From Xanthomonas sp. NCPPB 1128 (GTDB taxonomy: Bacteria; Pseudomonadota; Gammaproteobacteria; Xanthomonadales; Xanthomonadaceae): DNA of 64,000 nt. Under the pieces are notes generated by a model. It made no database searches. It was not told where the DNA came from and worked only from the letters and a program-made list of their open reading frames with translations. The DNA lies in assembly GCF_001043115.1 (NCBI RefSeq), contig NZ_LFME01000001.1:248001-312000 (forward strand), read 5' to 3'. Shown here in pieces: positions 7,984 through 29,588 of the stretch (within the stretch, counting starts at the first letter, position 1; each line of letters starts with the position of its first letter). The position numbers were made by a program, and so were the translations under genes.

Positions 7984-8045
7984 GCCCTTGCGTGGACGAT
8001 GCCCTGGTAGCGGCAGGGATACTTAACAGGAAGGAATGGAAGAGC

Positions 8046-9290: not shown

Positions 9291-9384
9291 CGCCAGTTTG
9301 GGCATTCGCGCGCCGCGACGCGCCAACCAGGTCCGGGTGAGCGCTGTCTTGTGCCGGACTGCAATGTCAGCTCAGGAGAAGGTC

Positions 9385-9642
9385 ATGAACGTGTACGCAG
9401 AAGTGTTGTCCGCCATCAACGAGATCAAGCGCACCGGGTTCACCATCGATACGGTGGAGCCGGATTTCTATCTGGGAGGCGATCTGGGCGTGGATTCGAG
9501 GGAGATGCTGGAGATCTGGTACGAACTGGAACAACGCCTGAGCGTGCGTATCGCCGATTCGGACAAGCGCGATCGCTATACGCTGCAGGATGTCGTCGAC
9601 GTGCTGAGTGCGCAGTTGAGCGCCCGCGCGCTCGTCGCCTGA
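9385..9642 (+). CDS. Free-standing acyl carrier protein
   Basis: An 85-residue acidic helical protein with the phosphopantetheine site GDLGVDSREML (Ser in GVDS) and the helix-II hydrophobic pattern of ACPs. I chose the ATG at 9385 because AGGAG lies six bases upstream; an ATG at 9364 would add seven residues. It sits between the oxoamine synthase and the acyltransferase. That position resembles the dedicated ACPs that serve bacterial serine palmitoyltransferases or starter-unit supply in trans-AT systems. It needs activation by a phosphopantetheinyl transferase such as the one at 28.8 kb. Confidence 0.88.
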   Translation: MNVYAEVLSAINEIKRTGFTIDTVEPDFYLGGDLGVDSREMLEIWYELEQRLSVRIADSDKRDRYTLQDVVDVLSAQLSARALVA

Positions 9643-9662
9643 GACGGAAGAGGACGGCTTCG

Positions 9663-11507: not shown

Positions 11508-11588
11508 AGCGTATCGGACCGCTCGGTCCGCACCATGGACAGGATCGGCTGAAAAGCCGGTTCGATGCAGCAAGGACAGGGATTAGGG

Positions 11589-14500
11589 ATGTCAAACGGA
11601 AATTTCTTGGACGCTTCGATCCGTACCGATGCCGATGCGGGTACGTCACCCGTCAACCCTGCAATCGGCAACGATTTCGATCGTCACGTTGCCTATTGGC
11701 GCGACGCGCTTGCAGGCGCGCCTGCCATGCTGGAATTGCCGACCGATCGTCCGCGCACCGGGCAACAGGGTGCCGCTACCGCCAGCATCGGTGTCGCCAT
11801 CGATTCCGAGTCGACCGCGCTCCTGGACGCGCTCGCCGCACGTTGCGGCACGACCCTGCAAACCGCCCTGTTGGCGGCGTGGGCGGCGACGCTGGCGCGC
11901 TTGTCGAGCCAGCACGATGTCGTGATCGGCGTGCCGACCGAGGGCGGTGCGCCGGCCGGTTCGATCGGCGATGTGCTGCCGCTGCGCGTCGATCTCAGCG
12001 GCCAGCCCAGCGTTGCCGAACTGCTGGCGCGGGTGGATCGTCGCCTGCGCGACGCATTCGCGCATGCGGTGCCCAGCTTCGAAGGCATCGTCGCATCCAC
12101 CGCATCGCTGGACGGCGTGCTGTCGGCGCCTGTTTTCCAGAGCGCGCTGGCCTTGCGCGAGGCAGATACGCCGGCGCAGGTGCAGTTGGCGGGCGTGGAT
12201 CTGGCGTTGGATCTACGCCAGTCCCGGGACGGCGTCTATGGTGAATTGCGCTACGCGATCGCGTTGTTCGAAGCCGAAAGCATCGGGCGCTACCTCGGCC
12301 ACTGGCGGCGCTTGTTGCGTGCGATGGCCCTGGACGAGACGCAGGCGGTTTCGCACCTGCCGATTCTGGGCGAAGAAGAGCGCCGCTCGGTTCTGCAGAC
12401 CTGGAATGCGACGGCGATCGAATATCCGCGCGACGCCTGCATGCACGAGTTGTTCGAAGCGCAGGTCGCGCGCTCGCCGGAGGCGGTGGCGCTGGTCGCT
12501 GGCGCCCGCACGCTGAGCTATGCGCAACTCAACGAACGCGCCAACCGCCTCGCGCATCATTTGCGTGCGCTCGGCCTTGGCCCGGACGAGCGCGTCGGCA
12601 TCTGTGTGCAGCGCAACGCAGAGATGCTGGTTGCGCTGCTGGCCTCGCTGAAATCCGGCGCCGCCTATGTGCCGCTGGATCCGGCCTATCCGGCGGACCG
12701 TCTGGGTTACATGCTCGACGATGCCGTGCCGCGCGTGGTGCTCACCGATGCCGTCGGCGGCCCCGTGCTGGCGCAAGCGCTGTCCCTGGCCGAACAGACG
12801 CAGTCGTTGACCGTGCTCGACCTGCAGGCCGATGCGGCCGCATGGGCGAACGCGTCCAGCGAGAATCCGTCGGCGCAAGCGGTCGGCCTGAATTCGCGCC
12901 ACCTGGCCTATCTGATCTATACGTCCGGTTCGACCGGTCGGCCCAAGGGCGTGGCCATCGAACATCGCAATGGCGTCAATTTCATCTGCTGGGCCTTGCA
13001 GGAATTTTCGGCCGAGACGCTGCGCAATTGCCTGTTCTCGACTTCGATCAATTTCGATCTGTCGATCTACGAATACGGCGTGCCCTTGTCCTGCGGCGGT
13101 TGTGTGACCTTGGTCGACAACGCGCTGGCACTGTTGAACACGGCATTGCCGGTCACCCTGATCAACACCGTGCCCTCGGTGATGATGGAGCTGACCCGTG
13201 CCGAGGCGATTCCGGCCAGCGTGCGGGTGGTGAATGTCGCTGGCGAGCCGCTCAAGCGCGCGCTCGCCGAGCGCATCATCGCGACTCCACAGGTCGAGCA
13301 GCTGTGCAATCTCTATGGCCCGTCGGAAACCACGACCTATTCGACATGGACGCGGATGGATCGCAGTACTGGTTTCCTCGCCGACGTCGGCCGCCCGATC
13401 GGCAACACGCAGGTCTATATCCTGGATGAAGTTGGCGCTCCTGTGGCGATCGGCGTGGCTGGCGAGATCTTCATCGGAGGCCACGGTGTCGCCCGCGGCT
13501 ATCTCGGCAAGGCGGACCTGACCGCCGATCGCTTTCTCGACGATCCGTTCAGCGCCGAGCCCGGCGCGCGCATGTACAAGACCGGCGACCTCGGGCGTTG
13601 GTCGAACGACGGTACGATCACCCTGCTGGGCCGCAACGACTTCCAGGTGAAGATCCGCGGCTTCCGCATCGAGCTGGGCGAGATCGAAGCCAGGCTTGGC
13701 GAATGCACAGGCGTGCGCGAAGCGGTAGTGGTTGCGCGCGACGACGACAACGGCGGCAAGCGCCTGGTCGCGTATTGCCTGGCCGACGAGGCGCTGGACA
13801 TTGCCGCGATTCGCGAGCATGTCGCCAGCGCTCTGCCCGATTACATGATGCCGTCGGCATTCGTGCGCTTGGAAGCCTGGCCGCTGACCGCCAACGGCAA
13901 GCTCGACCGCAAGGCGCTGCCAGTGCCCGACGACGCGGCATATACCCGCCGCGCCTATGCAGCGCCGCAGGGCGAGATCGAGACTACGCTGGCCTCCATC
14001 TGGTCCGATCTGCTGCGGCTCGATAAGGTCGGACGCAACGACGACTTCTTCGAACTAGGCGGGCATTCGTTGCTCGCCGTGCAGCTGGTGTCGCGCGTAC
14101 GCAAGGCGCTCGATGTCGAGTTGACGTTCCGCGATGTGTTCGATGCCTCGGAACTGTGCGAGCTGGGCGAGCGCCTGCCGCGCATCGCCGCCTCCAGCCT
14201 GAGCCCGATCGAGCCGGTGGCGCGACGGCCGTTCCTGCAGATGCCGCAGATCGTACGCGGCTTCTGGGTCATGACCCAGCTCGGCCAGGCGACCTCGGCG
14301 CATCATATCGGTGGTGCCTATCGCCTCGCTGGCGACCTCGATCGCCCGGCGCTGGAGCGCAGTTGGCGCGCCATCGTCGCGCGGCATGAAATCCTGCGTA
14401 CCCGTTTCGTTCAGATCGACGGCGAGCCCATGCTGAGCATTGGCGACAGCGCGCCATTCGATCTGCGCTTTCAGGATATCCGTGGCGTTGAGGACGCGGT

Positions 14501-17500
14501 CACTCGTTGCGACACGCTCTATTCGCAGTTGTACGCGGAACCCTTCGATCTCAGTCGCGACGTGCCATTGCGCGCGCAAGTGCTGCAACTGGACGAGCAT
14601 GCGTTCGAGCTGCAATGGGTGACCCACCATATTGTTTCCGATGGTTGGTCGATCGGCGTCATGCTCAAGGAGCTGAGCGAGTTCTATGCTGCCGAAACCG
14701 GCCGGGCGCAGGCGTCATTGCCTGCGCTGCCGGTGCAGTACATCGATTACGCATTCTGGAAGGGTGAACATCTGCCGGCTGCCGAGCTGGATCGGCAGAT
14801 CGGCTACTGGCGCGACACGCTGGCGGGTGCGCCGTTGTTGCTCGAGTTGCCGACCGACCGTCCGCGAGCGCCGCAGCAGGATTTTGCTGGCGCAGCGATC
14901 GATCTGCATCTGGACGAAGCCTTGACTGCACGGTTGAAGTCCTTGAGTCGGCGTCATGGCGTCACCCTCTACATGACGATCCTGGCCAGTTGGGCGGCGG
15001 TATTCTCGCGCCTGTCGGGGCAGTCGGAGGTTGTGATCGGCAGTCCGATGGCCAGTCGCGACCGCGAGGAGGTCGAACCGCTGATCGGCTTCTTCATCAA
15101 TACCCTTGCGCTGCGGATCGACCTGGATGGCAACCCTTCCACCGGCGAGCTGCTCGCGCGTACGCGCCAGCGGCTGCTGGATGCGCAGGCGCACGGGGAT
15201 GTACTGCTAGATCGCGTGATTGAGGCGCTCAAGCCGCCGCGCAACAGCGCCTACAACCAGATGTTCCAGGTGATGTTGGCCTGGCAGAGTCAGGATGAAG
15301 GTGAATTGGCGCTGCCGGGCGTCGAAGTCGTGCGCGCACCGAAGGCGATGAAGACCGCGCAGCTTGATCTGCTGATGGATCTGCGTGAGAAGGACGGCTC
15401 CATCAGCGGCTTCCTGAACTACATGACCGCGTTGTTCGATCGCGAGACGATCGAGCGCTTCGTCGGCTACTGGCAGCGCTTGCTGACAGCGATGGCCGCC
15501 GACGACACGGTGCCTGTCTCGGCGCTGCCGGTGCTGGGCGACGCTGAACGCGCGCAGGTGCTGCAGCAGTGGAACGCGACGGCGCAGCCCTATCCGCGCG
15601 ACAGCTGCATCGGTGCGTTGTTCGCTGCGCAGGCCACGGCGCACCCGGATGCGGTGGCCCTGGTGTGGGGCGAGCGGCGGGTCAGCTACGCGGCGTTGGA
15701 TCGCCGGACCAACCAGATCGCGCAGTGGCTGGGCGCGCAGGGCATCGGGCGCGGGGCGCGAGTGGCCTTGTCGCTGTCGCGCGGCGTGGCGATGGTGGAG
15801 ACGCTACTCGGCGTGTTGAAGGCCGGCGCTGCCTATGTGCCGATGGCGCCGGATCTGCCGTGGACGCGGGTGGCGTTCATGCTGGAGGACGCGCAGCCAG
15901 CGCTGTTGATCGCGGATGCGAGCGCGCAGCTGCCGGACGCGCCGGGGGTGCCGGTGGCGCGCCTGGAGGCAATGGCCGACGCGCTGTCGGCGCATGCCGA
16001 TCACGCGCCGGCGGTCGCGGGGATGGAGGCGACGCAGCTGGCGTACGTGATCTACACCTCCGGCACGACCGGCACGCCCAAGGGCGTGCAGGTCTCGCAC
16101 CGCAACGTGGTGAACTTCTGTTGCTGGTGCCGCGATGCCGGCTTGCTGGCGGCGGGCGTGCGCATGACCCAGTTCGCGCCGTATACCTTCGACGCATCGG
16201 CAGGGGAAATCTTCGCCGGCCTGCTCGGCGGCGCCGAGTTGCACCTGCTGGACGAGGAGACGATTCATAGCCCGCAGCGCCTGCAGGCATATCTACTGGA
16301 GCAGCAGATCGGCTTTGCGGCCTTGCCGCCGGCCTATCTGCAACAGCTGGATCCGGGGCTGGCACCGAGCAGCATGAAGCTGCTGACCGCCGGTTCGGCA
16401 CCGACGCCGGAGCTGGTGCGGCGTTGGGCCGGTCGTGGCGAGTACGTCAACGGCTACGGCCCGACCGAGACGACGATCCTGTCGACCACGACGGCGCTGA
16501 GCGCGGAGGAAGCGCGCATCAGCATCGGCCGTCCGATCGCCAATACCCGGGTGTACGTGCTGGACGCGCACCGTCAGCCGGTTCCGGTCGGGGTGACCGG
16601 AGAGTTGTGGATCGGCGGCGACGGCGTCACGCCGGGCTATCTGAACCGCGACGCGCTGACCGCGGAGCGCTATGTCGCCGATCCGTTCTGCAGCGAGCCT
16701 GACGCGCGCATGTACCGCACCGGCGACCTCGGCCGTTGGTCGTCGGACGGCAGCCTGGAGTTCGCGGGTCGCAACGACTTCCAGGTGAAGATCCGCGGCT
16801 TCCGCATCGAATTGGGCGAGATCGAAGCCAAGCTGCTCGAATGCCCTGGGGTGCGCGAGGCGGTGGTGGTCGCGCGCGGGGAGGGGGGCGAGCCGCGGCT
16901 GGTGGCGTACTGCCTGACCGACGGCGTCGCGGACGAGGCGCTGGATGCTGGTGCGTTGCGCGAGCGGTTGGCCAGCCAGTTGCCCGAGTACATGGTGCCG
17001 GCGGCGTTCGTGCAGTTGCAGGCCTGGCCGCTGACCGCGCATGGCAAGCTCGACCGCAAGGCGCTGCCCGCGCCGGACGACAGTGCCTATGCGCGGCGTG
17101 CGTACGAGGCGCCAGAGGGCGAGATCGAACAGCGCCTGGCGCAGTTGTGGAGCCAATTGCTGAAGGTCGATCAGGTCGGCCGCCACGATGGCTTCTTCGA
17201 ACTGGGCGGGCATTCGTTGCTGGCGGTGCAGCTGAGTTCGCGCGTGCGCCAGAGCCTGGGCGTGGAACTGCCGTTGCGTTGGGTGTTCGAAGCGCCGGTG
17301 CTGTCACAGCTGGCGCAGCGTCTGGCGAGCGGCGACGCCGCGCAACTGAGTGCGATCGCGGTGGCCGAGCGTTGTCCGCACATGCCGCTGTCGCTTGCGC
17401 AGCAGCGCCTGTGGTTCCTGACCCAGATCGATGGCGCCAGTGCCGCCTATCATACTGCTGGCACGTTGCGCTTGACCGGTCGCCTGGACGTGGACGCGTT

Positions 17501-20500
17501 GGAGCGTTCCCTGCAGCGTGTCGTCGCGCGGCATGAATCGCTGCGCACGCGCTTCGTGCTGATCGAGGGTCAGCCGATGCAGCGAGTGGATGCAGATGCG
17601 ACGCTGCGGCTGCGCTTCGAGGACCTGCGCGGCGAACACAATCGCGACGCCTTGCGCGTCGCGCAAGGCGAAGCGCTGTACGCGCAGCCCTTCGATCTGA
17701 GCGTCGATCCGCCGCTGCGGGTATTGCTGGCGCAACTGGAGGACGAGGAGTACGCGCTGTATGTGGTGATGCATCACATCGTCTCCGACGGCTGGTCGAT
17801 CGGGGTGATGCTCAGTGAGATCAGCCAGCTGTATACCGCCGAGCTGGAGCACGTAGCCGATCCTCTGCCGCCACTGCCCATCCAGTACATCGATTATGCG
17901 CAATGGCAGCGGCAGTGGTTGGCCGACGGCCAGCTGGAACGACAGGCCGCGTACTGGCGCGAGACCCTCGCCGGCGCGCCGACCCTGATCGAATTGCCGA
18001 CCGATCGTCCGCGTCCGGCGCATCAGGACTTCGCAGGCGCCGCGCTCGCAATCGATCTGGATGCCGCACTCACTGCGAGACTGAAAGCGCTGAGTCAGCG
18101 CCACGGCGTGACGCTCTACATGACCTTGCTGGCGAGTTGGGCGGCGCTGCTGAGCCGCCTGTCGGGGCAGGAGGAGGTGGTGATCGGCAGCCCGATGGCC
18201 GGCCGCACCCGGGCCGAGATCGAACCGTTGATCGGTTTCTTCGTCAACACGCTCGCGCTGCGGATCGACTTGGGCGATGCACCGACGGTGGCCGAGTTGC
18301 TGACGCGTACGCGCCGGCAGGTCCTCGATGCGCAGGCGCACCAAGACCTGCCGTTCGACCACGTGGTCGAAGTGACCAAGCCGGCGCGCAGTACCGCGCA
18401 CACGCCGATCTTCCAGGTCATGCTGGCGTGGCAGAACCAGGAGCAGGCAGGTCTGTCCATGCCTGGCATTACGACCGAAGGTCTGCCCCAGGAAACCAGC
18501 AAGGCGCGGTTCGACCTGGCCTTGGACCTGGCCGAACGCGATGGAGGCATCGTCGGTGTGCTGACCTACATGACTGCGCTATTCGATGAGCCGACCGTGG
18601 TCCGCTATGCGGGCTACTGGCAGCGCCTGCTGACCGGCATGGCGCAGGACGAGGCGATGGCCGTGGCGCGCCTGCCATTGCTCGACGAAGCCGAGCGTAT
18701 GCGCCTGCTGCATGAATGGAATGCGGTCAGCGAGATCCATCCGGAGTCGACCGTGCATGCGTTGTTCGAAGCGCAGGCACGGCGCACGCCCGATGCGCAG
18801 GCGCTGATCTGTGAAGACCTTACCCTCAGCTACGCCGAACTGAACCGCCGCGCCAATCAAGTGGCGCATCGCTTGATCGGCCTGGGTCTGCAGCCCGACG
18901 ACCGGGTGGCGATCTGCGTCGAGCGCAGCGCGTCGATGATCGTGGGTCTGCTCGGCATTCTCAAAGCCGGCGCAGCCTACGTGCCTTTGGATCCGAGCTA
19001 TCCGGTAGATCGGCTGGCCTACATGCTTGAGGACAGCCGGCCCAAGGCGTTGCTGACGCAAGCGCAGGTGTACGCGCGCCTGCCATCGCTGCAGGCTGCA
19101 CAAGCGCCGCTGCTGGTGCTGGATGACAGCAGCCTGGATGCCGTGGACACGCACGATCCGAACATCGCGGGTCTTACCTCGCGCCACTTGGCCTACGTGA
19201 TCTATACCTCCGGTTCGACCGGCCAGCCCAAGGGGGTGATGGTCGAACATCGCTCGCCGGTCAATTTCTGGCGGGCGATGTGCCAAACCACCCATCGCGA
19301 ACTCGCGCCGAATTCGCGCGTTGCCTTGAACGCGGCGTTCTCCTTCGACATGTCGCTGAAGGGCATTCTGCAGCTGCTGTCGGGTCACTGCGTGGTGCTG
19401 GTGCCGCAGGCGATCCGCGCCAACGGCCCGGCCATGCTGGCCTTCTTCGAGCGCTACCGGATCGAGGCAATGGACAGCACACCGTCGCAGTTGCAGGTGT
19501 TGCTGTCGGCCGGCTTGATCGAATCCGGCGGGCATCGTCCGACCAGTATCTATCTGGGCGGCGAGCCGGTGAGCCGCCGCATGTGGGAGCGCCTGAAAGC
19601 CTCTCCGAAGATACACTTCCACAATATGTACGGCCCGACCGAGTGCACGGTTGATGCGACCATCGGCAGCATTCGCGAGTCGCTCGGCGGTCCGGTCATT
19701 GGTAAGCCGATCCTCAATACGCCGGTGTATGTGCTCGACGCCTACGGCGAGCCGTCGCCGGTCGGTGTGCCCGGAGAGATGTTCCTCGGCGGCGTGCAGG
19801 TTGCGCGCGGCTATCTGGATCGTGCGGAATTGACCGGCCAGCGTTTCCTGCGCGATCCGTTCGCGGCGCACGCCGATGCGCGCATGTACAAGACCGGCGA
19901 CCTCGCACGCTGGACCGCCAACGGCGAACTCGAATATCTGGGCCGCAACGACTTCCAGGTGAAGATCCGCGGCTTCCGCATCGAGCTGGGCGAGATTGAG
20001 GCCAAGCTCGCCGCGTGCACTGGTGTAGATGCAGCGGCGGTCGTGGCGCGCGAAGACGCGTCGGGCGAGAAGCGGCTGGTCGCTTACGTGACGCTGCAGT
20101 CCGGGACGACCTCGTCGATCGCCGACCTGCGCACGCAGCTGCTGGCACAGTTGCCCGAGTACATGGTCCCGGCGGCGTTCGTGGTGTTGCTGTCGCTGCC
20201 GCTCACCCCCAACGGCAAGCTCGATCGCAAGGCGTTGCCTGCACCGGACGATACCGCTTATGCGCGGCGCGATTACGCAGCCCCGCAAGGGCGCGTGGAA
20301 ACCGCGCTGGCGACGATCTGGGCCGAGTTGTTGCACGTGGACCGGGTCGGCCGCTTCGACGATTTCTTCGAGCTTGGCGGTCACTCGCTGATGGTGTTGG
20401 TGGTAATCGACAAGCTCGCCGCTGTTGGCATCGAGCTGAAGCTAGCCGACATCTACCGACTCGGCACCGTGCAGGCCATCGCGGCCGCGATCGAGGCCGA

Positions 20501-23009
20501 TGGCGATACGGCCGCCGCCGAGCCCACGATGGAAGCGTGGTTGGATCGCCGCGGCTGGAGTTACTGCACCGAAACCATCGGCGAGCGTCGGATTCTGCGC
20601 CTTTCGCCGGCCACGCCGGCCGACATTGCCGCATTGAAAAAGTTCAGTGCTTGGCTGGACGGCGCTGGGAAACCGAGCCGTATCGTGATTGGCGAGGAAC
20701 CGCTACCGATCAGCGATGCCAAATTCGATCAGCGGGCCTTCCTCGCGGGCCTGGAAGCCTCGCTTGCGCAAGGCGAGCGCGCCGTCCGCGCGGCGGACGT
20801 CGTCGAGCGGTATCCCTTCAGCGAAGTGCAGAAGTCCGGCATCGAGTGGCACGATCGCGTGTCCCAGCACGTCGTCCCGGTCAACGGCTGGTGGTCGGCG
20901 GATGAATTGCGCAGTGCGTTCGCCGTGATGGTGCGCAGCCAGGACATGCTGCGTGCGGCCGCTGACTTCGATGCATCGCGCTGGGATGTGCTGGATCCGG
21001 CAGCGTTCCGCGCGGACGATGTGCCGTGGCTCGATCTGCGCCAGCTGCCGTCCAGTGACGCGGATGTGGCCTGGTCGGCGATCGTCGCCGCGCTGCATCG
21101 GGCGCAGGCGACATCCCGCCTATGCCATGTCGGCGTATTGCTGTCGCGCAGCGACACCGACCATCTGTTGCTGATGGTGAACGATCACCTGATCAGCGAC
21201 GGCCGCTCCTTCGAAGCCATCGCCGAAGGGATGCGCCGGATCCTGGTCGAAGACAGAGAGCCGCTCCCGGGCCGCTATGGCGATTTCGTCGCGGCATGCG
21301 GGCAAGAGCACGATCCATCCTTGCTCGACCGGCTGGCGATCGAGCTGGACAACGCAGGCATGGCACAGGTCACGCGCGCCACTGCCGAGGCGCTCGCAGC
21401 GAATGCGGATCAACCCGCACGCATGCTGGTGATCGAACTGCCTGCGGCGTCCTCCGATGGCTCGGCCAGGCGAGCCTTCGATCTTTTCCGGACCCTGGTC
21501 GCAACGGTCACCGGTTTGGATCGCTTCGCGATGACGATGACCCATCACGGCAGACAGTTGGGCAACCGAAGCTTCGTCGGTCAGTTCGGCCTGTTCCTCG
21601 ACAAGATACCGGTCGCGGTCGGACCGGAGAGCGTGCTCGAAGACGCGATCAAGCGCGCCGAGCTGCTGCATCGCCAGGGCGTTCGCTTCCTCGACTGGTG
21701 TCGCTCCGGCGACGCCCGCGCCGTGACGACGCTGGCCTCGGCAAAGGGCGAAGTTACCTTCAATTTCCAGCGTGCTGCCGGCGAAGGGCTCGACCACGCG
21801 CATGTCGACTTCCAGGCCCTGTGCGCCAACATCGAAGCCGTGCGGGGTGTCGTGTTCGATGCCTATGCCGGAACCTCAAGACTCGACGCGATGTTCGTCT
21901 TCAAAGGAAGTAGTGCCATGGTCGAAAAAGTGAACGCCTTGATCGCGTCGGCGGGAGGGGCCGTCCGCAATGGCGGCGACATCGCCGGGTCCGACCCTGC
22001 ACCGGCGCCGGTCCTGGCGGCGGCACCGATCCTCGCGGTGGTGGCGCCGTCGGTCGCAGTCGCAGAACCTGCGATCGTCGTGCAGGACTTGTACAAGCGC
22101 TATGGCGATGTCGAGGTGGTCAAGGGTCTGAACTTCAGTGTGCCCAAGGGGGCTTGCTTCGGCATCCTGGGCCCCAATGGCGCCGGCAAGACCTCGCTCC
22201 TGGGCATGATCGAAGGCATCGTTCCGATCACCTCCGGCCGCATCACCATGCTCGGCATGGACGTGGGCACGCAGATCCGCAAGATCCAGCCGCGGCTCGG
22301 CGTGCAGTTGCAGAGCAGCAACTACTTCCAGTTCCTGACCGTCAAGGAGCTGCTGGAGTTCTATTCGCAATACCGAGCCGCGGCGAGCGGCAAACGTAGG
22401 CTCGACACGACGGCGCGCTTGCTCGATCGCCTGGATCTGGCCGACAAGATGAGGTTCAAGGTCGACGATCTGTCCGGCGGGCAGAAGCAGCGCCTGTCGA
22501 TCGCGATCGCGCTGCTTGGCGATCCGGACATCCTGTTTCTCGACGAACCCAGCGCTGCCCTCGATCCGCACAGCCGTCGCCACCTGTGGGAGTTCATCGA
22601 AGAGCTCAAACATGAACGTACTCGCACCATTGTGCTGACCACGCATTACATGGAAGAGGCCGAGCGCCTGTGCGACGAGATCATGATCATGAGTAAAGGA
22701 ACGATCGTCGATCGCGGCGATCCCAGGTCCTTGGTGGCGCAGTTGAACGCAACCCAGCAGGTCGTGGTCAAGCTCGACGTCGGTGCGCCGGGTGAGGAGA
22801 TCGCTGTGGACATGGCGCCGACGTTCGTCGCGAGCTGGGACGGGTTCACCGATTCGCTGCGCATCCCTACCGACGACGTGACCGGCGCGATCCGCCAGAT
22901 CCTCTCCATCGCCGAAGCGCGCGGCGTTGCGGTGGCCGGCATCCAGGTGGACCGCTTGAATCTGGAAGACGTGTTCTTGAACAAGACAGGGAAGGAATTG
23001 CAGTCATGA
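11589..23009 (+). CDS. Three-module NRPS fused at its C-terminus to an ABC-transporter ATPase
   Basis: A 3806-residue protein; the ATG at 11589 is preferred because AGGGA lies six bases upstream (11565 is an alternative). In order: half condensation domain without HHxxxDG (about 20-275), A1 (285-770), PCP1 (Ser827), C2 with HHIVSDG near 1013, A2 (1325-1820), PCP2 (Ser1876), C3 with HHIVSDG at 2062, A3 (2370-2870), PCP3 (Ser2933), and a divergent condensation domain (3000-3440) with DHLISDG. An Ala/Pro/Val-rich linker (about 3455-3490) follows, then an ABC-2-type ATPase with Walker A GPNGAGKTS (Lys3534), LSGGQKQR, Walker B ILFLDEP and H-loop TTH. My alignment to the GrsA pocket reads DLYSNALTY for A1 (Ala-like), DAGALAGIL for A2 (no match known to me) and DMKSYGMVD for A3 (weak Glu/Gln resemblance). 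There is no thioesterase or reductase domain. The stop overlaps the permease start (ATGA). Confidence 0.93.
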   Translation: MSNGNFLDASIRTDADAGTSPVNPAIGNDFDRHVAYWRDALAGAPAMLELPTDRPRTGQQGAATASIGVAIDSESTALLDALAARCGTTLQTALLAAWAATLARLSSQHDVVIGVPTEGGAPAGSIGDVLPLRVDLSGQPSVAELLARVDRRLRDAFAHAVPSFEGIVASTASLDGVLSAPVFQSALALREADTPAQVQLAGVDLALDLRQSRDGVYGELRYAIALFEAESIGRYLGHWRRLLRAMALDETQAVSHLPILGEEERRSVLQTWNATAIEYPRDACMHELFEAQVARSPEAVALVAGARTLSYAQLNERANRLAHHLRALGLGPDERVGICVQRNAEMLVALLASLKSGAAYVPLDPAYPADRLGYMLDDAVPRVVLTDAVGGPVLAQALSLAEQTQSLTVLDLQADAAAWANASSENPSAQAVGLNSRHLAYLIYTSGSTGRPKGVAIEHRNGVNFICWALQEFSAETLRNCLFSTSINFDLSIYEYGVPLSCGGCVTLVDNALALLNTALPVTLINTVPSVMMELTRAEAIPASVRVVNVAGEPLKRALAERIIATPQVEQLCNLYGPSETTTYSTWTRMDRSTGFLADVGRPIGNTQVYILDEVGAPVAIGVAGEIFIGGHGVARGYLGKADLTADRFLDDPFSAEPGARMYKTGDLGRWSNDGTITLLGRNDFQVKIRGFRIELGEIEARLGECTGVREAVVVARDDDNGGKRLVAYCLADEALDIAAIREHVASALPDYMMPSAFVRLEAWPLTANGKLDRKALPVPDDAAYTRRAYAAPQGEIETTLASIWSDLLRLDKVGRNDDFFELGGHSLLAVQLVSRVRKALDVELTFRDVFDASELCELGERLPRIAASSLSPIEPVARRPFLQMPQIVRGFWVMTQLGQATSAHHIGGAYRLAGDLDRPALERSWRAIVARHEILRTRFVQIDGEPMLSIGDSAPFDLRFQDIRGVEDAVTRCDTLYSQLYAEPFDLSRDVPLRAQVLQLDEHAFELQWVTHHIVSDGWSIGVMLKELSEFYAAETGRAQASLPALPVQYIDYAFWKGEHLPAAELDRQIGYWRDTLAGAPLLLELPTDRPRAPQQDFAGAAIDLHLDEALTARLKSLSRRHGVTLYMTILASWAAVFSRLSGQSEVVIGSPMASRDREEVEPLIGFFINTLALRIDLDGNPSTGELLARTRQRLLDAQAHGDVLLDRVIEALKPPRNSAYNQMFQVMLAWQSQDEGELALPGVEVVRAPKAMKTAQLDLLMDLREKDGSISGFLNYMTALFDRETIERFVGYWQRLLTAMAADDTVPVSALPVLGDAERAQVLQQWNATAQPYPRDSCIGALFAAQATAHPDAVALVWGERRVSYAALDRRTNQIAQWLGAQGIGRGARVALSLSRGVAMVETLLGVLKAGAAYVPMAPDLPWTRVAFMLEDAQPALLIADASAQLPDAPGVPVARLEAMADALSAHADHAPAVAGMEATQLAYVIYTSGTTGTPKGVQVSHRNVVNFCCWCRDAGLLAAGVRMTQFAPYTFDASAGEIFAGLLGGAELHLLDEETIHSPQRLQAYLLEQQIGFAALPPAYLQQLDPGLAPSSMKLLTAGSAPTPELVRRWAGRGEYVNGYGPTETTILSTTTALSAEEARISIGRPIANTRVYVLDAHRQPVPVGVTGELWIGGDGVTPGYLNRDALTAERYVADPFCSEPDARMYRTGDLGRWSSDGSLEFAGRNDFQVKIRGFRIELGEIEAKLLECPGVREAVVVARGEGGEPRLVAYCLTDGVADEALDAGALRERLASQLPEYMVPAAFVQLQAWPLTAHGKLDRKALPAPDDSAYARRAYEAPEGEIEQRLAQLWSQLLKVDQVGRHDGFFELGGHSLLAVQLSSRVRQSLGVELPLRWVFEAPVLSQLAQRLASGDAAQLSAIAVAERCPHMPLSLAQQRLWFLTQIDGASAAYHTAGTLRLTGRLDVDALERSLQRVVARHESLRTRFVLIEGQPMQRVDADATLRLRFEDLRGEHNRDALRVAQGEALYAQPFDLSVDPPLRVLLAQLEDEEYALYVVMHHIVSDGWSIGVMLSEISQLYTAELEHVADPLPPLPIQYIDYAQWQRQWLADGQLERQAAYWRETLAGAPTLIELPTDRPRPAHQDFAGAALAIDLDAALTARLKALSQRHGVTLYMTLLASWAALLSRLSGQEEVVIGSPMAGRTRAEIEPLIGFFVNTLALRIDLGDAPTVAELLTRTRRQVLDAQAHQDLPFDHVVEVTKPARSTAHTPIFQVMLAWQNQEQAGLSMPGITTEGLPQETSKARFDLALDLAERDGGIVGVLTYMTALFDEPTVVRYAGYWQRLLTGMAQDEAMAVARLPLLDEAERMRLLHEWNAVSEIHPESTVHALFEAQARRTPDAQALICEDLTLSYAELNRRANQVAHRLIGLGLQPDDRVAICVERSASMIVGLLGILKAGAAYVPLDPSYPVDRLAYMLEDSRPKALLTQAQVYARLPSLQAAQAPLLVLDDSSLDAVDTHDPNIAGLTSRHLAYVIYTSGSTGQPKGVMVEHRSPVNFWRAMCQTTHRELAPNSRVALNAAFSFDMSLKGILQLLSGHCVVLVPQAIRANGPAMLAFFERYRIEAMDSTPSQLQVLLSAGLIESGGHRPTSIYLGGEPVSRRMWERLKASPKIHFHNMYGPTECTVDATIGSIRESLGGPVIGKPILNTPVYVLDAYGEPSPVGVPGEMFLGGVQVARGYLDRAELTGQRFLRDPFAAHADARMYKTGDLARWTANGELEYLGRNDFQVKIRGFRIELGEIEAKLAACTGVDAAAVVAREDASGEKRLVAYVTLQSGTTSSIADLRTQLLAQLPEYMVPAAFVVLLSLPLTPNGKLDRKALPAPDDTAYARRDYAAPQGRVETALATIWAELLHVDRVGRFDDFFELGGHSLMVLVVIDKLAAVGIELKLADIYRLGTVQAIAAAIEADGDTAAAEPTMEAWLDRRGWSYCTETIGERRILRLSPATPADIAALKKFSAWLDGAGKPSRIVIGEEPLPISDAKFDQRAFLAGLEASLAQGERAVRAADVVERYPFSEVQKSGIEWHDRVSQHVVPVNGWWSADELRSAFAVMVRSQDMLRAAADFDASRWDVLDPAAFRADDVPWLDLRQLPSSDADVAWSAIVAALHRAQATSRLCHVGVLLSRSDTDHLLLMVNDHLISDGRSFEAIAEGMRRILVEDREPLPGRYGDFVAACGQEHDPSLLDRLAIELDNAGMAQVTRATAEALAANADQPARMLVIELPAASSDGSARRAFDLFRTLVATVTGLDRFAMTMTHHGRQLGNRSFVGQFGLFLDKIPVAVGPESVLEDAIKRAELLHRQGVRFLDWCRSGDARAVTTLASAKGEVTFNFQRAAGEGLDHAHVDFQALCANIEAVRGVVFDAYAGTSRLDAMFVFKGSSAMVEKVNALIASAGGAVRNGGDIAGSDPAPAPVLAAAPILAVVAPSVAVAEPAIVVQDLYKRYGDVEVVKGLNFSVPKGACFGILGPNGAGKTSLLGMIEGIVPITSGRITMLGMDVGTQIRKIQPRLGVQLQSSNYFQFLTVKELLEFYSQYRAAASGKRRLDTTARLLDRLDLADKMRFKVDDLSGGQKQRLSIAIALLGDPDILFLDEPSAALDPHSRRHLWEFIEELKHERTRTIVLTTHYMEEAERLCDEIMIMSKGTIVDRGDPRSLVAQLNATQQVVVKLDVGAPGEEIAVDMAPTFVASWDGFTDSLRIPTDDVTGAIRQILSIAEARGVAVAGIQVDRLNLEDVFLNKTGKELQS
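21903..21920 (+). promoter_or_regulatory. Possible internal ribosome binding site and start for a separate ABC ATPase
   Basis: Inside the NRPS frame, AAAGGAAG at 21903-21910 lies seven bases before an in-frame ATG at 21918 (Met3444 of the fusion). Initiation here would give a 363-residue protein consisting of the linker and the complete ABC ATPase, ending at 23009. That is a normal size for an ABC-2 ATPase partner of the downstream permease. No codon change or stop separates it from the NRPS, so the fused product must also be made. Whether the site is used is inference. Confidence 0.4.
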
Positions 23010-24073
23010 GAACGGTGTGGGTGTTCTTCAAGTTGCGCATGCGCCAGCTCCGCTACGACAAAGTGGCGCTGGTGTTCTGCTACGTCTTCCCGGTGGTGCT
23101 GCTGCTGGGCATCGGCTATCCCTTGGAGTTGTCCGGCAATCACAGGATCAAGGTCTCTTACCTGGAAGCGGAGGTCGCGCCGGCCGGCAAGTCCCTGATC
23201 GATGCGCTCGGCAAGCAAGACCTCGTCCACGTCGTGCCCTTCGTGGGCGAGCGCGCGCAGGCCGAAACCGCGCTCAAGAACAACGAGATCCAGCACTTGC
23301 TGAGCGTCTCCGGGGCGTCTGCGGACGGGCCGGCGAACCTGACGATCGAAAGCAATTCGCTGGAGGAGAACCGCATCGCGGCGATCGCGCTGGCGTCGAT
23401 CCTGAAAACCAACGTTTATGGCGCGTCGGGGACCGAAGTCCGCCTGCAGAACGTAGAGGTAAGCCGGCGCTCCTCCTATCTGGCCACCTTGTTGCCGGGC
23501 CTGATCGGGATGACGATGCTGGTGATCGGCTTGAGCGGTTTCGGCTCGGTGCTGATCGGCGAGGAAAGCGCGGGGCTGTTCAAGAATCTGAAAGCCATCG
23601 ACGTTTCGCCGACGCCGTTCTTTGCCGGATTGTTTCTCTCTCGCGTCTTGGTCGCCTACAGCGTGGTCGCCGGCATGCTCGCCGTCTCGGTGTTCGGACT
23701 CGGCGTATCGGCCGACATCAACTATCTGTTGCTGTTGCTGGCGGTGACCATGGGCGCGGCGACCTATCTGGGCATCGGCCTGATCGTGTTCCTGTTCAGC
23801 CGTTCGGTGATGGCGTTCAGTGGCATCGTCAGCTTCATCCAGGTGCCGATCTTGCTGCTCGGTGGCGCGTTCTTCTCGATCAAACTGTTTCCATCTTGGT
23901 TGCAGCCGATCGCCCAGCATTCGCCGCTGGCGCCATTCACCTCGATCCTGCGCGAACTGATGTTCGGCGGGGTCGGTTTGCAAGACGTCTCGCAGCTGTA
24001 CCCGTCGCTGATCACCATGTCGGTCTGGATGGTGGTGATTCTCTTGCTGGCGCGCTGGAGATTCCGATGGTGA
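23006..24073 (+). CDS. ABC-2 type transporter permease
   Basis: A 355-residue membrane protein with an N-terminal membrane anchor near residues 20-40, a large periplasmic loop, and a C-terminal cluster of about five hydrophobic helices from about 160 to 350, typical of ABC-2 permeases. The start overlaps the NRPS-ATPase stop (ATGA at 23006-23009), which indicates translational coupling. It is the obvious membrane partner of the ATPase fused to the NRPS, and together they would export the cluster product or confer self-resistance. The substrate is inferred from context only. Confidence 0.9.
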   Translation: MRTVWVFFKLRMRQLRYDKVALVFCYVFPVVLLLGIGYPLELSGNHRIKVSYLEAEVAPAGKSLIDALGKQDLVHVVPFVGERAQAETALKNNEIQHLLSVSGASADGPANLTIESNSLEENRIAAIALASILKTNVYGASGTEVRLQNVEVSRRSSYLATLLPGLIGMTMLVIGLSGFGSVLIGEESAGLFKNLKAIDVSPTPFFAGLFLSRVLVAYSVVAGMLAVSVFGLGVSADINYLLLLLAVTMGAATYLGIGLIVFLFSRSVMAFSGIVSFIQVPILLLGGAFFSIKLFPSWLQPIAQHSPLAPFTSILRELMFGGVGLQDVSQLYPSLITMSVWMVVILLLARWRFRW

Positions 24074-24538: not shown

Positions 24539-25594
24539 ATGAAAATGCGTCCAATGATCTACGCCGCAACCTTGCTGGGCACCGGTCTGTTGTTTGGTTT
24601 TTTGCTCAGCGGTCGGTCCGCCAAGTCTGCCGTCACCACCAATCAAACCACGCCACCGCTGACGGTCAGCGTGGTCAAGTCACAACGCAAGGCGCTGGCC
24701 GAGGCGGTCTCCGTGGTCGGCGCCACGCGCAGTCGCGAGAATGTGCCGGTGATCCCGCAACTGTCTGGACTGCAGGTGCAACGCGTGGAAGCCGAGGTCG
24801 GCGACTATGTCAAGGCCGGGCAGGTATTGGCAGTACTGGATGGCAAGGGCATGGGGATCTCCAGCAACGAGCTGCGATCCGACTTCGAGCGCGCACGGGG
24901 CGACTACGAGCGCATGCGTCTATTGCTGCCGCAGCAACTGGTCAGCGTGGAGTCGTTCAAACAGAAACAGGCGGATTTCGAGGGTGCACGCGCGCGCTAC
25001 GACAACGCGCGACTGAGTGTGCAGCGCACCAACGTGGTTGCTCCGGCCGCAGGTTTCGTCTATCGGCGTACCGCGGAGATCGGCAACCTCACCAGCGATA
25101 GCGTCGCCTTGTTCGAGATCGCCAAGGACGGCGAGATGGAGGTGGATGCCAGCGTGCCCGAAGCGGTGGTCGGGCGCCTTAAGCCGGGCATGAGCGCGAG
25201 CATCAAGCTGGCCGGGCGCGCCGAGCCTATTCCTGGCGAGATTCGCTTGATCACGCCGAACGTGGACAGCGCCACTCGTTCGAGCGAAGTGCGGATCCGT
25301 CTGCACGCACAAGATGTCGTTCCGGTGGGCATCTTCGCTCAGGCGCGCATCGATCTGGCGAAGGTGCAAGGCTGGACGATTCCGCGCACGGCGATGCAAC
25401 AGGATTCGCTTGGCAGCTACGTCTGGTGTGTCGATGGCAAGGGCCTGGTGTCGCGCATGCCGATCACGCCGACCTTGCAGACTGTCGACGAAGTTCTGGT
25501 GTCGGAATCGCTCGACGGCCTGCGCATTGTGGCCAAGGCCGGCCCGTTCCTGCGCGAAAGGGACAAGGTGCTGATCGCCGACGCGAGTCGCTGA
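24539..25594 (+). CDS. RND efflux periplasmic adaptor (HlyD/AcrA family)
   Basis: A 351-residue membrane-fusion protein with an N-terminal membrane anchor (about residues 6-27, followed by SGRSAKS). It then has a split biotinyl-lipoyl segment (QVQRVEAEVGDYVKAGQ and VVAPAAGFVYRR) around a helical hairpin, followed by beta-barrel and membrane-proximal domains. It bridges an RND pump to an outer-membrane channel. The RND gene starts 70 bp downstream, so the two form a transcription unit. Its position inside the biosynthetic cluster suggests export of the product or self-protection. No outer-membrane factor gene is in the window, so a TolC-like partner encoded elsewhere is likely. Confidence 0.9.
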   Translation: MKMRPMIYAATLLGTGLLFGFLLSGRSAKSAVTTNQTTPPLTVSVVKSQRKALAEAVSVVGATRSRENVPVIPQLSGLQVQRVEAEVGDYVKAGQVLAVLDGKGMGISSNELRSDFERARGDYERMRLLLPQQLVSVESFKQKQADFEGARARYDNARLSVQRTNVVAPAAGFVYRRTAEIGNLTSDSVALFEIAKDGEMEVDASVPEAVVGRLKPGMSASIKLAGRAEPIPGEIRLITPNVDSATRSSEVRIRLHAQDVVPVGIFAQARIDLAKVQGWTIPRTAMQQDSLGSYVWCVDGKGLVSRMPITPTLQTVDEVLVSESLDGLRIVAKAGPFLRERDKVLIADASR

Positions 25595-25664: not shown

Positions 25665-28600
25665 ATGAACTTCGGCTTCTCGACCTGGGCGATCCGCAAT
25701 CCGGTGCCGCCGATTCTGCTGTTCGTCATGCTCACGCTGGCAGGCATCGTCGCCTTCATCCAGTTGCCGATCACGGCGATGCCGAATGTGGTCACGCCGG
25801 TGGTGGACGTGCTGATTCTGCAACCCGGCGCGACCCCTACCGAGATGGAGACGGAGACGACGCAGAGGGTCGAGGACGCGGTGGCGTCGATCCCGGGCAT
25901 CAAGCGCATCGTATCGACTGTGACGGAAGGCCAGTCGACGACGCAGATCGAATTCAACCTCGATGTAGGCGTGGATCGCGCGACCAATGACGTACGCAAC
26001 GCGGTGGCCGCGATCCGGCAGAACCTGCCGGCGACGGTACGCGAGCCGATCGTCCGCCGCGCCAGCGATACTGGCCGGCCAGTCGGTATCTATATCGCCG
26101 AAGCGCCGGAAATGCCGATGGAAGACCTTAGCCGCTTCGTCGATCAGACGGTCGCGCGCGAACTGCTAACGGTCAAGGGCGTATCGCGCGTGGACCGCAG
26201 CGGCGGCAGCGATCAGGAGATCTCCATTGTGCTGGACCCGGCGACCCTGGCTTCACTCGGAATCAGTGCCGCCGATGTCAGCCAGCAACTGCTGGCCAGC
26301 AATGCCAACTCGCCGGGCGGGCGCTTGACTCTGGGCGCGACCGAGTATGCGCTGCGCACGATCGGCCGTGCCGACAGTCTTGACGCCTTGGCGGGAACGC
26401 GCATCTCGGTGCCTGGCGGACGCACGGTGAAGCTGTCGGACATCGGTGTCGTTTCCTACGGCCCGTCGGACGTGCGCAACATCACCAAGGTCGATGGCCG
26501 CCCGGCGGTGACCTTCATGGTCTACAAGGATCCCACTGTCAGCGAGGTTTCGGTCGCCAAGGCGGTGCGCGAGCGTCTGGAGGCACTGTCGAAGACGCAT
26601 GCAGTGCTGTTCCGTGTAGCGTTTTCGGATATCGATTTCGTTGAGATTGGATATCGCGCGACGATGTTCAACTTCCTGGAAGGCGCCATCCTGACCGTGC
26701 TGGTGGTGTTCTGGTTCCTACGCAATCGGCGTGCGACGCTGATTGCGGCGCTGACGATCCCGTTGTCGATCATTCCCACATTTTTGGTCATGCAGTGGCT
26801 GGACTTCAGCCTGAACATGATCAGCTTGCTGGCGATTACACTGGTCACCGGCGTGCTGGTCGATGATGCGATCGTTGAGGTCGAGAATATCGATCGGCAT
26901 ATGCGGTCCGGAAAGTCGGTCATGCAGGCAGCGATTGAAGCGTCCGAAGAGATCGGATTGTCGGTGATCGCGACGACCCTGGTGATCTGTGTGGTGTTCA
27001 TTCCTGTCAGTTTCATGGATGGCTTGCCGGGCTTGTACTTCCGCCAGTTCGGCCTGACGGTTGCGGTCGCCGCGTTCTTTTCGCTGGTTGTAGCGCGCTT
27101 GCTGACGCCGATGCTGGCGTCGCGACTGATGAAGGTTCCAACGACGGATCATCCGCAGGACAGTGCCTTGATGATCCGATATCTTGCGATCGTCCGATGG
27201 ACGCTTAAGCACCGCATCAAGACGTTGGTGATGGCGCTGATTGGTGTCGTGATGTCGTTCGGACTGGTGCCTTTGTTGCCGCTGGGCTTCATGCCGTACG
27301 ATGATTATTCGGTCTCCAGCATCACACTGGAAGTTCCTCGCGGTAGCACCATCGAGCAGACCGATCAGGCGGCGCAGCAAGTGGCCGCTGTAGTGAGCAA
27401 GCACGCGGAGGTCGAGTATGTGCTCACGCTTTCCGGGGGCGCCGATGGCGCGGTCAACAAGTCGCGCATCTACGTCAAGCTGGTTCCTCCGGAAAAGCGT
27501 GATATCAGCGAGCGCGAGTTTACTTCGCGTGTCTACCCGGAGATCGCCAAGTTGCCCGACATGCGAGTCAACTTCGATAGTCTGTCAGGTCGAAAAGACG
27601 TTTCCATCGCGCTCGTGAGCGAAGATGATCGTGCGCTCACTCGCGCAGCCGATGCAGTCAAGCGCGACATGCAGAAGATTCCCGGCTTGATTGGCGTCGA
27701 CACCAGTGTCGGTCAGGAACAGCCGGAAATCGTCGTGCAAATGGATCCGCTCAAGGCGGCCGATTTTGGAGTTACCGCACAGCAGGTCGGAGATGCTATC
27801 AGTACGTCGACGATCGGAGACGATATTCCGCGCTTGTCCAAGTTCAATTACATGAGTCGCGAGATTCCCGTGCGCGTTCTCCTGCCGCGCGAATACGGGA
27901 CGGATCTTGGCGTCTTGGAGAATCTCAAGCTACGTACAGCCTCAGGTGGAAGTGTGCCGTTGGCATCTGTAGCCACCTTGCGATTTGCCAAGGGGCCGGC
28001 GACCATCGAACGCTATGACAGGGAGCGCCGCATCGATCTGCAGGCCAATCTCGACGGCGTTGCCCTGGGCACCGCCATGGCGGCTATCAAGGCCTTGCCA
28101 TCGATCAAGCGCCTGCCGCACGGCGTGCGTGTGCTCGATACTGGCGATGCTGAGTTTGTAAACGAATTGCTGGTGAGCTTCCTGAAAGCGCTTGGTACCG
28201 GTCTGTTCTTGGTCTATGCGATTCAGGTTCTACTGTACCGCGACTGGTTGCAGCCATTGGCTCGAATGATGGCCTTGCCGCTGTCGATTGGCGGCGCATT
28301 CCTGCTGCTTTTCGCGACGGGCATGGAGTTGAGCCTACCGGCTCTGCTGGGAATGCTGATGCTGATGGGCATCGCAGATAAGAATTCGATCCTCCTCGTG
28401 GATGCGATCTTGGAAAACCTCCGCAAAGGTATGCTCAGGTTCGATGCCATCATGCTCGCTTGTCGCGCACGCGCTCGCCCAATCGTAATGACCTCGGTGG
28501 CGATGACTGCGGGCATGTTGCCGCTGGCATTCGGTGTATCTTTGGATTCCGCATTTCGAGCACCCATGGCGATCGCAGTGATTGGTGGTCTGATTTCTTC

Positions 28601-28718
28601 CACGATTCTAAGTTTGATTCTGGTCCCGCTGTTATTCAGCTTCGTTCATGATGTCGAGCTTTGGATGGCTAGGAAATTCGTGTCTAAGGCGCAGGTAGCT
28701 GTTCCGGGTGTGGCTTAA
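25665..28718 (+). CDS. RND-family efflux pump inner-membrane protein (AcrB/MdtB-like)
   Basis: A 1017-residue proton-driven pump of normal family length. The first membrane helix is near the N-terminus, followed by the large periplasmic porter region and the second helix set. The proton-relay Asp pair is visible in GVLVDDAIVEVEN, and the matching Lys of TM10 in GIADKNSILLVDAIL. The HAE1-type pattern suggests small-molecule export. It is encoded directly after its adaptor. The 3' third of the gene is visibly AT-richer than the NRPS, a trend that continues into the next gene. The substrate cannot be read from sequence; the cluster product is the natural candidate. Confidence 0.93.
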   Translation: MNFGFSTWAIRNPVPPILLFVMLTLAGIVAFIQLPITAMPNVVTPVVDVLILQPGATPTEMETETTQRVEDAVASIPGIKRIVSTVTEGQSTTQIEFNLDVGVDRATNDVRNAVAAIRQNLPATVREPIVRRASDTGRPVGIYIAEAPEMPMEDLSRFVDQTVARELLTVKGVSRVDRSGGSDQEISIVLDPATLASLGISAADVSQQLLASNANSPGGRLTLGATEYALRTIGRADSLDALAGTRISVPGGRTVKLSDIGVVSYGPSDVRNITKVDGRPAVTFMVYKDPTVSEVSVAKAVRERLEALSKTHAVLFRVAFSDIDFVEIGYRATMFNFLEGAILTVLVVFWFLRNRRATLIAALTIPLSIIPTFLVMQWLDFSLNMISLLAITLVTGVLVDDAIVEVENIDRHMRSGKSVMQAAIEASEEIGLSVIATTLVICVVFIPVSFMDGLPGLYFRQFGLTVAVAAFFSLVVARLLTPMLASRLMKVPTTDHPQDSALMIRYLAIVRWTLKHRIKTLVMALIGVVMSFGLVPLLPLGFMPYDDYSVSSITLEVPRGSTIEQTDQAAQQVAAVVSKHAEVEYVLTLSGGADGAVNKSRIYVKLVPPEKRDISEREFTSRVYPEIAKLPDMRVNFDSLSGRKDVSIALVSEDDRALTRAADAVKRDMQKIPGLIGVDTSVGQEQPEIVVQMDPLKAADFGVTAQQVGDAISTSTIGDDIPRLSKFNYMSREIPVRVLLPREYGTDLGVLENLKLRTASGGSVPLASVATLRFAKGPATIERYDRERRIDLQANLDGVALGTAMAAIKALPSIKRLPHGVRVLDTGDAEFVNELLVSFLKALGTGLFLVYAIQVLLYRDWLQPLARMMALPLSIGGAFLLLFATGMELSLPALLGMLMLMGIADKNSILLVDAILENLRKGMLRFDAIMLACRARARPIVMTSVAMTAGMLPLAFGVSLDSAFRAPMAIAVIGGLISSTILSLILVPLLFSFVHDVELWMARKFVSKAQVAVPGVA

Positions 28719-28802
28719 TTCTATGAAGGCGTCTGGTAGTAGGTGTAATAATCGATTTTAGTGATGCTGTTGAATAAACAATATGTATTAAGAAAAAACT
28801 AC

Positions 28803-29588
28803 ATGTTCGTTCCTTTAGTAAAGCTTGGTGAATGCGATATCGATATTTGGCTCGCATTCTATGAGGGCATTGGCGAAGGTCCGCTTGTGGAAATTTATCC
28901 GCTGCTTGACTCCGATGAACGCAAGAAGCAGGCGCGTTTTTTGCTTGAAGATGATCGTAAGCGCTACCTTGTCACGCGAGGTATGGTGCGTTCGGTATTG
29001 TCCGGATATGCGGAGGTGGCTCCAAGAGACTGGAGATTCCAAAAGGGTCGCTTTGGGCGTCCCGGTATCTCCGATAGACATGGCGTCGATGTGTGTGCGC
29101 TGTCATTCAACATCTCACACACGCGTGGTTTGATCGCAATCGCCGTTACTTTGAAGCGTGCAGTAGGCGTGGATGTTGAGCATTTTGCGTTGCGTCGTAT
29201 TTCATTGGAGGCGGCAAGAAGTAGTTTCACTCATGAGGAAATGGCGGAGCTTATGCGTCTGCCAGCACATCTACGACAGGAACGATTTTTCGAGTATTGG
29301 ACGTTCAAAGAGGCATACGCAAAGGCTAGGGGTTTTGGAATGGCGCTTCCACTTGATCGTTTCGGATTCGATTTGACGATGGAGCGATCTGTACGGTTGG
29401 TAGCCGATCCGGGTTTGGATGACGACCCGCACCGATGGCGATTCTGGCAATGTAGACCTGCACAGCATCATCTATTGGCGCTTTGTGCCGATGTTGATCG
29501 TGCAGTAACGCCAAGGATTTTCATCTGGAAATGGAAGTCATTGACTTCACATGAAAAAATGGATTTTGAGTTTATTAGGACATCTTGA
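28803..29588 (+). CDS. Sfp-type 4'-phosphopantetheinyl transferase
   Basis: A 261-residue protein with the family's three signature regions: FNISHTRGL, GVDVE (Mg-binding Asp and Glu) and WTFKEAYAKARG. It transfers phosphopantetheine from CoA to the Ser of the ACPs and PCPs encoded upstream, and so is essential to activate the assembly line. I chose the ATG at 28803 because it best fits the family's N-terminus; GTG/ATG codons at 28761 and 28764 would extend the protein. No strong Shine-Dalgarno is seen for any of them. Codon use is clearly AT-richer than in the PKS/NRPS genes, so it may have a different origin. It closes the cluster on the right. Confidence 0.9.
   Translation: MFVPLVKLGECDIDIWLAFYEGIGEGPLVEIYPLLDSDERKKQARFLLEDDRKRYLVTRGMVRSVLSGYAEVAPRDWRFQKGRFGRPGISDRHGVDVCALSFNISHTRGLIAIAVTLKRAVGVDVEHFALRRISLEAARSSFTHEEMAELMRLPAHLRQERFFEYWTFKEAYAKARGFGMALPLDRFGFDLTMERSVRLVADPGLDDDPHRWRFWQCRPAQHHLLALCADVDRAVTPRIFIWKWKSLTSHEKMDFEFIRTS

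Follow-up and report, generated by a model that had tools for sequence, protein, structure and literature searches.

A nonribosomal peptide synthetase frame that continues into an ABC-2 exporter ATPase in Xanthomonas

Organization of the Fusion Gene

We analyzed a 64,000-nt stretch of Xanthomonas sp. NCPPB 1128 (contig NZ_LFME01000001.1, positions 248,001 to 312,000 of the forward strand; hereafter the window), in which the open frame of a nonribosomal peptide synthetase (NRPS) continues into the ATPase of an ATP-binding cassette (ABC) exporter of the ABC-2 type. The initial annotation had described this in-frame join, a stop-free Ala/Pro/Val-rich linker, a complete ATPase, and a cognate permease with an ATGA overlap; all were recovered here, with the following boundaries.

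11565..23009, plus strand: NRPS–ABC ATPase fusion gene, one stop-free frame of 3814 amino acids (aa)
20643..21953, plus strand: terminal divergent condensation (C) domain with its preceding spacer; DHLISDG motif, weak Pfam Condensation match
21903..21920, plus strand: AAAGGAAG, candidate internal-start ribosome site 7 bases upstream of an in-frame ATG at 21918; duplex energy −6.0
21954..22064, plus strand: Ala/Pro/Val-rich linker of 37 codons between the terminal C domain and the ATPase
22065..23009, plus strand: ABC-2 exporter ATPase domain; six motifs looked for, all found
23006..24073, plus strand: ABC-2 permease (ABC2_membrane_3, E = 7.5e-28), overlapping the stop of the fusion gene by ATGA

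Pfam matches in the 3814-aa protein comprise three AMP-binding domains, three PP-binding domains, and three Condensation stretches, followed by ABC_tran at residues 3520–3663 (E = 3.2e-27). The order is the C-terminal half of a condensation domain, adenylation–peptidyl carrier protein (A-PCP), C-A-PCP, C-A-PCP, terminal C domain, linker, and ABC ATPase. The serial A, PCP, and C domains with their core motifs bear out membership in the NRPS family. An alternative start, ATG 11589, is conserved in G018, the second genome of the genus to carry the join. No thioesterase appeared among the Pfam matches of the fusion protein, to which this search was confined within the cluster; the terminal C domain therefore probably releases the chain onto a nucleophile.

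The number of A-PCP modules differs between the two genomes: three in the window NRPS (11565–20500) versus six in G018 (loci L043 and L044 compared). The G018 NRPS contains an internal 4.4-kb repeat, 87% identical, and for this reason the three modules of the window may reflect either a deletion by recombination or the collapse of a repeat during assembly of the 71-contig draft. Half condensation domains, consisting of the C-terminal half only, occur at both the C terminus of the upstream polyketide synthase (PKS; window 5200–6996, profile positions 196–448 of 456, under the Pfam cut-off) and the N terminus of the NRPS (11565–12464, profile positions 188–454).

The terminal C domain is the only NRPS element directly before the linker, with no A-PCP after it. 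What the initial annotation called the last NRPS unit is thus NRPS sequence as stated, though not a full unit, and position 21840, where the annotated stretch begins, falls in the C-domain tail. The domain scores 18.0 bits against the Pfam Condensation cut-off of 30.6, a value reached by none of the seven family members searched (18.0–30.4 bits); a profile built from nine terminal-C relatives retrieves PDB chains of NRPS proteins (best E = 5e-9). Within the HHxxxDG motif—DHLISDG in the window, at residue 3207—the second His is kept and the first is replaced by Asp in all nine rows.

The ATPase carries GPNGAGKT, GVQLQ, LSGGQKQR, ILFLDEP, SAALD, and TTHYM, and all six motifs (Walker A/B, Q-loop, signature, D-loop, H-loop) are kept in nine of nine ATPase rows. 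This full set, together with the adjoining ABC-2 permease, bears out its membership among ABC-2 exporter ATPases. The permease adjoins the ATPase in seven of the eight genomes searched, G225 being the eighth. The closest curated models are DrrA and NodI and the closest solved chains are ABCA proteins; assignment to the DrrA or NodI subfamily failed, both scores lying below the curated cut-offs (drrA, 235.1 versus 312.45 bits; NodI, 201 versus 549), as did that of drrB for the permease (52).

Distribution Among Related Genomes

Full-length matches to the C domain plus ATPase occurred in 2 of 20 genomes of the genus sample: the window's own and G018, a single-contig genome with a fusion frame of 7144 aa. 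In the family sample, 11 of 395 genomes matched at E = 1e-52 or better—five full-length in one open frame, two with the parts in separate frames (G286 and G302), one with the C domain only (G225), and three with the ATPase only. The fused genomes G000 (the window's own), G018, G236, G078, and G247 are 100, 87, 54, 41, and 42% identical to the window; for the C domains alone, those of the other fused genomes are 32–41% identical to the window's, except G018 at 84%. The order sample (398 genomes) added one ATPase-only match, the class sample (369 genomes, C-domain profile, E = 1e-25) yielded nothing besides the window, and 373 genomes sampled around a Collimonas genome gave two matches, both split. 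The strict limits applied to the family, order, class, and Collimonas samples, with only two candidates scored in each genome, may have let weaker relatives escape. Searches of a plasmid collection with the C domain and the junction gave no match.

A contig scan returned 12 loci: three fused (L028, L030, and L033), two split (L029 and L031), a lone ATPase (L032), and six weaker ATPase-only loci (L034–L039). L028, L030, L033, and L029 correspond to the loci of G236, G247, G078, and G1028, and L031 is apparently that of G286. The non-redundant set comprises 10 clusters, of which five are fused, four are split, and one (G225) lacks a close ATPase relative. L032 (9905–11997) is an unfused pair whose ATPase and permease share 52 and 42% identity with those of the window; it lies upstream of a further NRPS, in the metagenome-assembled genome that also contains L033. 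The six weaker loci matched the ATPase part of the query alone (from residue 154 of 483), and a motif scan covered L034, L035, L038, and L039; in L035 (8996–11071), a Rhodococcus locus, a 691-aa frame combines ABC signature-like and condensation-like patterns, which may be chance.

In G225, the terminal C domain continues in frame into a resistance-nodulation-division (RND) periplasmic adaptor (L064, minus strand, ~12606–15213) that is 56% identical to the window's. No permease matched in this genome at E = 1e-12, and no close ATPase relative was found: the best matches, at 35 and 33% identity, are about as close as paralogues of no direct relation in G018 and G302. We count this join as apparent only, and not as a second proven fusion, because an ATG with a well-placed ribosome site (AGGAG, energy −6.9) intervenes between the C domain and the adaptor core and another frame is open (1 and 0 stops in the alternative frames over 80 codons). 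The GC content at third codon positions falls to 0.45 in the G225 linker.

The Junction in Fused and Split Clusters

In the 77 codons that precede the ATPase core, the fusion frame contains no stop in any of the five fused loci, with 0 to 5 stops in the other two frames; base shuffles leave one frame open by chance in 0.03–0.12 of cases per locus, before the one-in-three factor for frame. In all four split clusters, the stop of the C-domain gene overlaps the start of the ATPase gene by ATGA (4 nt). At the corresponding place, the fused loci lack a start codon (five of five), and a GTG or TTG lies 4–6 codons beyond it in four of five, with Shine–Dalgarno energies of 0, 0, −4.9, and −1.5. The fused chains extend 17–23 residues beyond the last column occupied by split C domains, in a sequence that differs per lineage. 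The alignment of the window with G018 spans 1269 codons and is free of indels.

The C-domain tree (nine rows) falls into halves: the window, G018, SJ66, and G225 in one, and G078 and G247 with the split Collimonas and Lysobacter forms in the other. A single fused clade, and with it a single origin of the fusion, is rejected on the C-domain tree (P = 1.5e-8, approximately unbiased test) and not on the ATPase tree (P = 0.246). On these trees, the fusion appears either to have arisen twice or to be old and later undone, ancestral fusion with later splits being compatible with trees that have no reliable root. G1158, found later, is absent from the trees. An earlier ATPase tree with an outgroup was poorly resolved, and the outgroup rows G185 and G606, which had no frame fitting the motif filter, were left out.

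Gene Neighborhood

The fusion gene and permease lie within a row of biosynthetic and export genes on the same strand.

1..6996, plus strand: 3′ part of a PKS with ketosynthase, dehydratase, ketoreductase, and acyl carrier protein units; the frame opens upstream of the window and measures 5409 aa stop to stop
6997..7983, plus strand: extended short-chain dehydrogenase/reductase (Pfam Epimerase, 1.3e-33; NCBIfam HpnA, 5.5e-68, below its cut-off)
7536..9290, plus strand: pyridoxal phosphate-dependent alpha-oxoamine-synthase-like enzyme of the BioF/serine palmitoyltransferase type (Pfam Aminotran_1_2, 2e-40; bioF, 2.8e-87, below its cut-off)
9351..11507, plus strand: tandem acyltransferase, read as a trans-acyltransferase (trans-AT; Acyl_transf_1 and fabD, two stretches each)
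24539..25594, plus strand: RND periplasmic adaptor (HlyD/RND_mfp; RND_mfp 158.4 bits, above its cut-off)
25665..28718, plus strand: RND efflux pump (ACR_tran, E = 4.9e-223)
28761..29588, plus strand: 4′-phosphopantetheinyl transferase (ACPS, 4.9e-16)

No acyltransferase was matched in the seven pieces of the PKS frame searched. The oxoamine-synthase-like gene probably starts further in than 7536, as the alignment with most relatives begins only at about residue 130–170. Its relatives are present in eight of eight genomes searched (76–91% identity), within ~27 kb of the C domain on the same contig in six and on a separate contig in G236 and G286. Between the permease and the RND adaptor, L059 (G078) and L061 (G302) hold a frame of 451–456 aa that resembles a diaminobutyrate-type aminotransferase.

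A Proposed Tether Between Synthesis and Export

On balance, we favor the reading that synthetase and pump ATPase are made as one polypeptide, with the terminal C domain tethered at the membrane beside the exporter; on the sequence evidence we hold this to be probable by a modest measure. In its favor stand the unbroken frame in five genomes, the lack of the ATPase start in all five fused loci as against its presence with the ATGA overlap in all four split ones, the indel-free alignment with G018 and its dN/dS values (C domain 0.28, linker 0.61, ATPase 0.12), the conserved motifs of both domains, the adjoining permease, the lack of a thioesterase match in the protein, the recurrent oxoamine-synthase-like enzyme, the nearest models and solved chains of the ATPase, and the cereulide precedent discussed below. 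Such a polypeptide would carry the ABC-2 exporter ATPase of the cluster C-terminal to the divergent terminal C domain of the NRPS line. Pairing of two ATPase domains under the permease would fix the C domain and the synthetase at the inner membrane, where the C domain would couple the finished peptide on the last carrier protein to its nucleophile—most likely a lipid-like, membrane-resident long-chain amine made by the PKS and the oxoamine-synthase-like enzyme. With such an amine located in the membrane, it would make sense for the last enzyme to be tethered to an exporter of the lipid type, and the amphiphilic product could pass to the exporter, bypassing the cytosol. In this scheme we infer translation through the linker, membrane anchoring, and hand-off, and we derive the last-step chemistry from domain content. 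The suggestion in the initial annotation that synthesis is tethered to the membrane pump is plausible in this light. It is a more speculative step, and to us an unlikely one, that the linker couples the ATP-driven pump cycle to the last bond-forming step, such that the peptide would be joined to the membrane amine and expelled in a single act and synthesis would stall with export.

Several observations weigh against a tethered single polypeptide. The C domain and ATPase lie apart in four of 10 clusters, with no close ATPase relative in one more; pathways of this type can thus do without the fusion. The linker dN/dS of 0.61, measured over 37 codons, is weak evidence of translation and no proof alone. 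A junction ATG with a Shine–Dalgarno-like sequence ranks in the top 2–7% of gene windows in four of the five fused genes. Since a pump of the ABC-2 type should require a pair of ATPases, each pump would carry two synthetases.

An ordinary fusion of little function is the strongest competitor, and we consider it rather unlikely: overlapping genes would have lost their ATGA through a small change, the parts working as they do when separate. The 4-nt overlap in all four split relatives, and the occurrence of both forms within the family, speak for this account. Set against it, the fused state is kept across C domains as divergent as those given above and across linkers of differing sequence, and the trees require state changes between fused and split—at least two on the C-domain tree, at least one on the ATPase tree—but neither point shows a function.

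Slightly less probable still, in our estimate, is a dual output in which the long frame yields the fusion and an internal start near the C-domain end yields free ATPase forming most of the pump, a tethered minority docking the synthetase. This would relieve the problem of two synthetases per pump. The AAAGGAAG element, 7 nt ahead of ATG 21918, is almost unchanged in G018; a duplex energy of −6 or stronger occurs at 9% of the 290 internal starts in the fusion gene. When only ATG is allowed, the best junction start is matched in strength by 6, 5, 41, 7, and 2% of same-gene windows (G000, G018, SJ66, G078, and G247), a ranking chosen after the data were seen and in which G000 and G018 are not independent. 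With GTG and TTG also allowed, the shares become 25, 24, 0, 25, and 24%. The candidate sites moreover lie at differing places relative to Walker A (−84, −84, −77, −72, and −47 codons), that of the window within the conserved C-domain tail. From these rankings, free ATPase made in addition to the fusion protein is possible, and it is compatible with a tethered polypeptide, as both can hold. ATG 21918 as the source of ATPase as the sole product was rejected: it sits in the conserved C-domain tail, and SJ66 lacks a Met at that place.

A sequencing or assembly error that erased a stop codon or frameshift, which the initial annotation had named as a ground for refutation, is rejected as extremely improbable: the genome that contains the window is a draft in 71 contigs and three of the five fused cases are metagenome assemblies (75, 82, and 99% complete), yet the same join recurs in four other, independent genomes, one of them a single contig.

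Comparison with Known Systems

The nearest precedent for a tethered polypeptide is cereulide synthesis in Bacillus cereus. As described in PMC7527721, the ATPase CesC binds condensation domains in both CesA and CesB, CesCD is required for membrane location of the CesA C* domain, and loss of the transporter abolishes cereulide synthesis. The window resembles CesAB/CesCD, as that text presents it, in having an ABC ATPase beside NRPS genes, a link between ATPase and condensation domain, and a separate membrane subunit; membrane tethering is reported there and proposed here from sequence. Unlike the Ces proteins, which are separate and in contact, the window has one chain ending in C domain and ATPase, and its gene row also includes an RND pump; the likeness is one of description. 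If the tethered reading is true, the fusion would supply natural covalent evidence that an NRPS line and an ABC exporter act as one complex, a notion that, in the sources accessible to us, has rested on interaction studies such as those of cereulide. The fused and split pairs would offer matched natural constructs for asking whether the tether controls yield, and the C–ATPase unit could be used for structural work and for siting assembly lines at the membrane.

The DrrAB and NodIJ systems share the ATPase and permease sequence type with the window pair, yet the window scores fall below their curated cut-offs. The DrrAB and NodIJ ATPases stand alone. MmpL7 with the polyketide synthase PpsE is, according to the discussion in PMC7527721, a further case of an exporter bound to a megasynthase; it is non-covalent and of the RND rather than the ABC type, and it recalls the frame of G225 that joins C domain and adaptor. 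Lysohexaenetides and other Lysobacter clusters are hybrid PKS–NRPS systems, some with trans-AT PKSs (PMC11451712), a likeness by description only.

In the accessible parts of the open-licence literature, we found no report of a covalent link between an NRPS and an ABC ATPase; such proteins may be noted in subscription papers or in databases of protein architecture, which lie outside that scope. The portions available of PMC4859500, PMC4558948, PMC2739229, and PMC3849588 use NRPS and ABC wording in other senses, and those of PMC9581180 and PMC11451712 name no NRPS–ABC fusion. The initial annotation's statement that no established system of this kind exists stands, within this literature, for the covalent form; it is limited to that form because cereulide, in the text cited, gives an experimental non-covalent precedent. 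Within the literature searched, the window fusion is thus a covalent version of an already known ABC–NRPS coupling, and the covalency is the new part.

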